Below, one piece after another: positions 8,300 through 9,580 of a stretch of 64,000 bases of DNA. Made by a program: the position numbers and the translations under genes. The notes beneath the pieces were generated by a model. That model ran no database searches and was not told the DNA's origin. It saw only the letters and a program-made list of their open reading frames with translations. The stretch is from Spartobacteria bacterium. GTDB lineage: Bacteria; Verrucomicrobiota; Verrucomicrobiia; Chthoniobacterales; UBA10450. Positions within the stretch are counted from its first letter, which is position 1, and each line of letters begins with the position of its first letter. Location of the stretch: assembly GCA_003167365.1 (NCBI GenBank), contig PMTM01000019.1, positions 1 through 64,000 of the forward strand, in the 5' to 3' direction.

Positions 8300-8995
8300 A
8301 TGAAAACTCTCGGAATTATCGGCGGCGTCGGACCTGAGTCGACGATCGATTATTATCGCGCGATCGTTGCCTTGTATCGCGAGCGAAAGACCGATGGAAG
8401 CTATCCGCCGCTTATCATCAACAGCATCGACCTGAAGAAAGTGGTCGATTTGATCACGCGAAACGATTTGAAGGGCGCGGCGAATTATCTGCTTGATGAA
8501 ATTCGCAAACTCGCGCGTGCGTCAGCCGATTTTGGTTTGGTTGCAGCGAACACGCCGCACATTGTCTTTGACGAAGTGCAATCTCAATCGCCGATTCCGC
8601 TCATCAGCATTGTCGAGACGACATGCGCGGCGGCAAAGGCGCGCGCGCTGAAACGGCTCGCCTTGGTCGGAACCCGTTTCACGATGCAGGGAGTGTTTTA
8701 TCCGAAAGTCTTCTCGCGAGAAGGAATCGAGCTCGTCACGCCCGATCCGGATGACCAGGAATATATTCACAACAAATACATGAACGAACTGATCCTCGGA
8801 AAATTTCTGCCGGAAACGCGCGCCGGGCTTTTGGCGGTGGTCGATCGCTTAAACAAGAAGATCGATCTCGACGGCGTGATTCTCGCCGGAACAGAATTGC
8901 CGCTGATCTTGCGGGATGCGGCGCACAACGGAATTCCGTTCTTGGACACGACAAAAATCCATGTGGAAGCGGCCGTTAATGAGATGTTGTCCTAA
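8300..8995 (+). CDS. Aspartate/glutamate racemase superfamily protein lacking both catalytic cysteines
   Basis: The 231-residue sequence has the family fold marks: GIIGGVGPESTIDYY at the N-terminus, a first active-site strand (VAANTPH) and a second one (ILAGTELPL). In active members the bases before N-T and T-E are Cys (or Thr in the first site). Here they are Ala and Gly, read directly from the codons, so ordinary two-base racemisation is unlikely. It may be a binding protein or a different enzyme such as a hydrolase or isomerase. It is followed 9 bases later by a small membrane protein gene. Confidence 0.8.
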   Translation: MKTLGIIGGVGPESTIDYYRAIVALYRERKTDGSYPPLIINSIDLKKVVDLITRNDLKGAANYLLDEIRKLARASADFGLVAANTPHIVFDEVQSQSPIPLISIVETTCAAAKARALKRLALVGTRFTMQGVFYPKVFSREGIELVTPDPDDQEYIHNKYMNELILGKFLPETRAGLLAVVDRLNKKIDLDGVILAGTELPLILRDAAHNGIPFLDTTKIHVEAAVNEMLS

Positions 8996-9004
8996 CCGTT
9001 GGTG

Positions 9005-9580
9005 ATGAAACGCGAAGCTAAATTTGTTTCCTTCGTTTTGGCAGCGTGGCTTTGTTTTGCGCTGGCTGTGGGAGTTGCGGACTGGTTTCAACCGGCTTCG
9101 GCGCCAGTGGTCGCCCTGACGGTCTGGACTTTGACCGGACTCATTCTGCTCGCTTGCTGGAAAATCGATCCGATCAGCACGTGGGCCGCGAATGTCGATC
9201 TCCGCTGGCTCGTGCTGCTTCACACCACAAGGTTCGTTGGGTTTTATTTTCTGATTCTTTGCCGGCGTGGCGAATTGCCCTGCGCATTCGCTGCGCCCGC
9301 CGGCATCGGCGACATAACAGTCGCGGCCGCAACGGTCATTATCCTTCTTGTTCCGAGGTTTCGCGCGTCACGAAGGCTTCTCCTTATTTGGAACAGCGCC
9401 GGTTTGCTCGACATTGTCTTCGTGGTGCTCATGGCGCTGCGCGCAGGCTTGAGAGATTGGCAATCGATGGCGCCATTGCGTGAGTTGCCGCTTGGATTAC
9501 TCCCGACCTTCCTAGTTCCTCTCATTATTGCCTCACACGTTCTGATTTTCGTGCGGGTCGCGAGATCCAAGACCGGATAG
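9005..9580 (+). CDS. Small multi-pass membrane protein, function unknown
   Basis: About 191 residues with five or six hydrophobic segments (e.g. FVSFVLAAWLCFALAVGVA; FVGFYFLILC; LGLLPTFLVPLIIASHVLIF). I do not recognise the family. TTG (8999), GTG (9002) and ATG (9005) are consecutive in-frame starts; ATG is preferred. It lies 9 bases after the racemase-like gene, so the two are probably one transcript. Confidence 0.65.
   Translation: MKREAKFVSFVLAAWLCFALAVGVADWFQPASAPVVALTVWTLTGLILLACWKIDPISTWAANVDLRWLVLLHTTRFVGFYFLILCRRGELPCAFAAPAGIGDITVAAATVIILLVPRFRASRRLLLIWNSAGLLDIVFVVLMALRAGLRDWQSMAPLRELPLGLLPTFLVPLIIASHVLIFVRVARSKTG

Follow-up and report, generated by a model that had tools for sequence, protein, structure and literature searches.

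An apparent cysteine-less subfamily of the Asp/Glu racemase fold pairs glycine at the second catalytic position with an aromatic residue

Our analysis shows that a gene in a 64,000-nucleotide stretch of DNA from a soil bacterium (the whole stretch is called the window here) encodes an Asp/Glu-racemase-type protein in which both catalytic residues are replaced, and that among its aligned relatives glycine at the second of these positions, residue 197, always occurs together with an aromatic residue at position 160. Judged from sequence, the best explanation is that the gene belongs, within the PH1733/YgeA-type branch of Asp/Glu-racemase-fold proteins, to a conserved and widespread cysteine-less subfamily. 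The open reading frame is intact and begins with ATG:

8300..8995, + strand: gene for a 231-aa cysteine-less protein with the Asp/Glu racemase fold (from the open reading frame, PF01177, TIGR00035 and a predicted model)

In a Pfam profile search, the protein consists of a single domain that matches PF01177 (Asp/Glu/hydantoin racemase superfamily) over residues 7-225 with 145.2 bits against a cut-off of 31. The best NCBIfam model is TIGR00035, amino acid racemase (169.5 bits, cut-off 93.1); the scores for the EcL-DER equivalog NF007569 (124.4 bits) and the cysteate racemase CuyB, NF052483 (104.1 bits), lie under their cut-offs of 417 and 190. The sole other PF01177 match of the genome, C21:191582-192157 in a 287-aa frame, is presumably the cell-wall glutamate racemase, and because the genome holds this second match the window gene is probably dispensable for D-Glu.

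The first active-site strand has the sequence LVAANTPH (residues 80-87) and the second ILAGTELPL (residues 194-202). Four features lie in them:

8543..8560, + strand: site 1 motif A82-A83-N84-T85-P86-H87 (sequence, alignment)
8546-8548, + strand: Ala83 codon, in the place of the first catalytic residue (alignment with PhAspR Cys82 and EcL-DER Thr83)
8885..8896, + strand: site 2 motif A196-G197-T198-E199 (sequence, alignment)
8888-8890, + strand: Gly197 codon, replacing the second catalytic cysteine (alignment with PhAspR Cys194 and EcL-DER Cys197)

A preliminary description of this DNA had read the strands as AANT and AGTE, with both catalytic residues gone. The coordinates and residues it gave are correct, and the alignment it proposed, with EcL-DER and archaeal AspR, sets Ala83 against Thr83/Cys82 and Gly197 against Cys197/Cys194. 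The protein thus departs from two-base Asp/Glu racemases, which carry Cys or Thr at the first site and Cys at the second; it shares the Ala of the single-cysteine RacX/PH1733 type at site 1 and has Gly in place of Cys at site 2. Sequence comparison indicates that the two losses are not equally unusual: Ala or Ser at position 83 is common in relatives that keep Cys197, and the change of Cys197 to Gly is the distinctive step. Ala83 is the lesser point because the AANTPH motif is common to PH1733, and RacX is active with Ala79 and Cys193. The same description held that losing both residues implies a changed function. This is plausible, since both thiols are missing and an OpaE mutant without them is reported to keep at most 0.3% of activity (C90S/C199S, PMC12661438), but an Ala at site 1 is by itself compatible with the activity of RacX.

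We aligned homologues of the window protein sampled by their closeness to it, with no more than 30 loci taken from each genome search and 80 from the contig scan, so that proportions among the rows are not population frequencies. A match was present in 51 of the 83 genomes from the window's family (most of them close, and counted as matches rather than as confirmed Gly197 types) and in 38 of 387 genomes from its phylum; 80 of 156 loci from a scan of genome contigs were used, and five further phylum-wide samples were added. Before counting, 23 proteins shorter than 200 aa, 1 containing X and 23 identical ones were dropped from 293, and the final MAFFT alignment holds 246 proteins and 4 PDB chains (250 rows). 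Residue 197 is Gly in 97 rows, Cys in 147, Ser in 5 and Ile in 1. Residue 83 is Ala in 72 of the Gly197 rows and Ser in the other 25; in the Cys197 rows it is Ala (48), Thr (45), Ser (24), Cys (22), Asp (7) or Gly (1).

Several rows outside the Gly197 type are observations in their own right. A separate same-class group (L045, L046, L047 and L055) combines Ile160 with Ser in each of the two catalytic positions (CSNLMHY / GSSEL), a second route to losing both cysteines. In L042, L043 and L044 the first catalytic residue is Asp and the second is Cys (PDNTIHQ / GCTEIPL), and the 492-aa frame L048 holds two tandem racemase domains, one with both cysteines and the other degenerate in appearance.

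A phylum label is attached to 44 of the 97 Gly197 rows, and the labels name eleven phyla besides Verrucomicrobiota: Acidobacteriota (21), Pseudomonadota (7), Gemmatimonadota (5), Chloroflexota (3), Bacteroidota (2), with a single row for each of Ignavibacteriota, Planctomycetota, Cyanobacteriota, Methylomirabilota, Armatimonadota and Myxococcota. Individual labels may be wrong, since metagenome bins make up most of the labelled records; the 53 unlabelled rows include the window's Verrucomicrobial kin. A plasmid search returned 254 records, all below 60% identity to the window protein, and the best match listed (Sinorhizobium BG8, 39.7%) has GNTPH, GCTEL and, aligned by eye, Ile at the Tyr160 position.

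Gly197 genes are under purifying selection: in 46 pairs with dS below 1.5 the median dN/dS is 0.118 and the maximum 0.227 (pairs of equal length and 80-99.5% identity, with genes recurring across pairs). This bears on whether the gene is degenerating or an assembly artefact, as the missing cysteines, the relatives L090, L099 and L123 (split between frames or partial) and the loss of N84 in L031, L148 and L248 might suggest. We regard that as highly improbable; it is contradicted by the intact reading frame and refuted by dN/dS values of at most 0.227 and by Gly197 in 97 of 250 rows from many genomes.

Comparison of the rows identified a second residue that switches along with Cys197 to Gly:

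8777..8779, + strand: Tyr160 codon (MAFFT alignment, 250 rows)

Every one of the 97 Gly197 rows has an aromatic residue at position 160 (96 Tyr, 1 Phe), and all 153 others have Ile, Leu or Val there, or in one row a gap. After thinning to below 85% identity the separation holds, with an aromatic residue in 82 of 82 Gly197 rows versus 0 of 132 others. A scan of the 230 positions besides 197 found that only position 160 fully separates Gly197 from Cys197 rows; the next best, position 57, reaches 0.966, with Trp in 113 of 147 Cys197 rows and mostly Leu or Arg in Gly197 rows. The nearest cysteine-keeping rows mostly read HxK(L/I)...LGCTE(L/I) and the Gly197 group mostly HxKY...L(G/A)GTEL, with equal spacing from HxKY or HxK(L/I) to the anchors on both sides. 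Five Ser197 rows keep Ile160, which ties the pairing to Gly rather than to mere loss of Cys. An earlier alignment by phmmer columns had placed four Tyr160 and one Phe160 in Cys197 rows; the MAFFT realignment, from which the counts for position 160 are taken, has none. The preliminary description was right that both cysteines are lost, but it missed that the second loss is the trait of a large conserved group and is tied to Tyr160. From sequence, Tyr160 could supply a replacement acid/base residue.

The coupling of 160 and 197 is perfect across rows, but it may represent few evolutionary events, even one. In the unmasked tree, made from an earlier set of rows, all 76 Ala/Ser-Gly rows of that set lie on one side of a branch with support 89/86. 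Masking columns 83, 160 and 197 gives best trees that require 3-5 changes: L120 (Flavobacterium salmonis) and L170, with Gly197, fall among Cys197 rows with L105 unplaced beside them, and L131, with Cys197, falls among Gly197 rows. A single Gly197 clade is nonetheless not rejected by the AU test (p-AU 0.285, with the long branches L248 and L033 left out). Independent pairs number two on supported branches, both concordant, and four on all branches, too few for significance. We considered L248 (26% identity) as an independent case and rejected it, its best relatives being ordinary Gly197 members; it is treated as a divergent offshoot and kept among the 97 rows. L248 retains Gly197 and Tyr160, and the Asn84-Thr85 pair is gone from it (TSLGGH / AGTDL), which may mark a further shift in function.

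The preliminary description also took the fold motifs around the two strands to be intact, and an AlphaFold2 prediction bears this out. The model, made with 57 aligned sequences, has a mean pLDDT of 96.5 and a pTM of 0.92, and its best structural match is the D-Asp complex 5hra (1.3 Å over 229 residues, Z 34.5; TM 0.93 in Foldseek). In the model, the helix spanning residues 150-162 carries Tyr160 and the strand 192-196 ends just before Gly197. Loop B of OpaE (residues 160-170) lies over Cys199 (PMC12661438), and V156 and M159 of arylmalonate decarboxylase, shortly upstream of C188, line the pocket (PMC12576825, PMC4996985). By analogy, matched by spacing alone, the stretch some 30-40 residues upstream of the second cysteine would cover it or line the pocket in distant members. 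Tyr160 may also just fill a void or face away from the cleft.

The 97 Gly197 rows keep most of the small polar active-site residues: N84 in 94, T85 in 93, H87 in 97, T198 in 97, E199 in 96 and H221 in 97. We infer from the kept Asn84/Thr85 and Thr198/Glu199 turns that the ligand would carry an alpha-carboxylate. Replacements at the putative side-chain end of the site include one further position:

8792..8794, + strand: Ile165 codon, aligned with PhAspR Lys164 (alignment)

Residue 165 is hydrophobic in 94 of 97 Gly197 rows (Val 46, Leu 39, Ile 9), and is Glu in 12 of the 19 nearest Cys197 rows. The PhAspR Arg48 position is Val48 in the window protein and mostly Gly, Ala, Met, Leu or Val in Gly197 rows; the six commonest residues, which cover 93 of 97 rows, exclude Arg. 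We take PhAspR Arg48 and Lys164 to be the binders of the substrate's side-chain carboxylate, a role for which a literature search found nothing, and the window protein has Val48 and Ile165 in place of this pair expected of a two-base Asp/Glu racemase. The argument from this loss against Asp or Glu as ligand is weak, because EcL-DER, which accepts both, has Ile and Cys at the two positions; PH1733 is also without the pair. The hydrophobic 165 column likewise argues weakly against an Asp/Glu ligand.

Taken together, the group probably does a different job from the racemase of its label. We tentatively read it, with rather less than even confidence, as a cysteine-less subfamily of one-base enzymes built on Tyr160 and acting on a ligand without a side-chain carboxylate. 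The closed site would still bind a small alpha-carboxylate ligand via the Asn84/Thr85 and Thr198/Glu199 turns, and this ligand would be amino-acid-like, other than Asp or Glu. Tyr160, on helix 150-162 upstream of strand 192-196, would reach into the space vacated by the Cys197 side chain and act as the sole acid/base on its face, perhaps replacing the thiol. The chemistry could then be deprotonation and reprotonation of one enantiomer, or a decarboxylation or lyase step, as with the single cysteine of arylmalonate decarboxylase. One-base chemistry is likelier than two-base racemisation because position 83 offers nothing on the other face. A phenol is a weaker base than a thiolate for removing an alpha-proton without a cofactor, and the one Gly197 row with Phe160 has no hydroxyl, which counts against an acid/base role for Tyr160. 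That the Gly197/Tyr160 group is a cofactor-free family whose cysteine proton-transfer site was rebuilt around a helix-borne tyrosine, for a reaction new to this fold, we consider rather unlikely.

The lone Phe160 row is more easily accommodated if proton transfer has been given up altogether and the closed site serves as a sensor, scavenger or partner, with Tyr160 filling the hole left by Cys197 and locking the ligand site. Such a ligand-binding pseudoenzyme, a possible if somewhat doubtful alternative, fits the loss of both thiol positions and the near-inactivity of the OpaE Cys-to-Ser double mutant, and tight conservation suits binding as well as catalysis. Against it stand the retention of most small polar active-site residues, the absence of a regulatory domain from the single-domain window protein, and gene neighbourhoods that hold no shared partner gene beyond near kin. 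The upstream neighbour in the window is a VPS10/BNR protein on the other strand, and the gene is followed by a small open reading frame:

8999-9580, + strand: hydrophobic 193-aa protein with a TTG start, 3 bases past the racemase stop (open reading frame)

This protein has no Pfam match at E 0.001, and relatives of it occur close to the racemase gene at 11 loci, all from Verrucomicrobial near kin. We clustered the neighbours of 123 loci, a set that mixes Gly197 and Cys197 types and in which some genomes recur because two collections supply them. The racemase cluster spans 104 loci; the next clusters span 26 (an MFS transporter by eye), 22 and 11 loci, all from Verrucomicrobial near kin, and a further cluster of 11 loci has one member, L089, from outside this group. 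We gave no weight to a 14-locus cluster, whose example is an open reading frame antisense to the racemase gene. One neighbour is common to four loci of different phyla (L074, L095, L124 and L126), and no shared pathway was found among the neighbours of the 123 loci.

The group could also still racemize amino acids, with broad or unusual specificity, using as its two bases Tyr160 and water or another residue such as His87 or Thr85. The best NCBIfam model carries the name amino acid racemase, and the fold and ligand-turn residues are intact. A study of RacX (Ala79/Cys193) describes an active broad-specificity enzyme that racemizes Lys in both directions and accepts 15 of the 17 L-amino acids assayed (PMC12838360). 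The C193S change markedly reduced its activity, yet this Cys-to-Ser replacement raised kcat and weakened binding, and the authors assign the second cysteine a larger part in binding than in catalysis (PMC12838360). By analogy, some members may turn over substrate without strictly needing the second cysteine, and loss of Cys197 need not require a replacement base. The same mutant weighs on the other side through its reduced activity, as does OpaE, where C199S and C90S/C199S each keep at most 0.3% (PMC12661438), and as does PH1733, with Ala and Cys, which is reported to lack activity towards Asp and Glu (PMC12838360, citing Kita 2009). The OpaE result makes a classical racemase unlikely for the Gly197 group, and we judge survival of racemase activity as a whole to be quite unlikely.

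Family model TIGR00035 would name the window protein an amino-acid racemase, though both reaction-defining residues are missing in 97 rows. The Gly197 type is not rare, and occurs also in sampled genomes on the Acidobacteria and Gemmatimonadota sides; a search of open-access literature (titles and abstract openings) found no study of a racemase-family protein without both cysteines. The Gly197/Tyr160 pair is a two-residue signature for re-labelling such proteins, and mutating it would test directly whether a phenol can take the place of a thiol in an active site.

Among solved chains, the best phmmer match is PH1733 of Pyrococcus horikoshii (2zsk), which has the same fold (Z 29.1) and an identical AANTPH motif but differs in its site 2 cysteine (CTELP) and in Ile at position 160. 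EcL-DER/YgeA (5hqt, 5hra, 5ell, 5elm), an L-Asp/Glu-specific or broad racemase, has the fold, N84, T85, H87, T198 and E199 in common with the window protein, and differs in Thr83, Cys197 and Ile160. RacX of Halocola ammonii has Ala at site 1 followed by Asn-Thr, like the window protein, and unlike it retains Cys193 at site 2. PhAspR (1jfl) shares the fold (Z 27.7) and the NT and TE surroundings, but its Cys82, Cys194, Arg48 and Lys164 are all replaced in the window protein. Arylmalonate decarboxylase (3dtv, G74/C188) is a distant example of the same fold (Z 15.9) in which one cysteine is missing and the chemistry is other than racemization (PMC12576825, PMC4996985); it differs from the window protein in retaining one cysteine, in its motifs and in its substrate.
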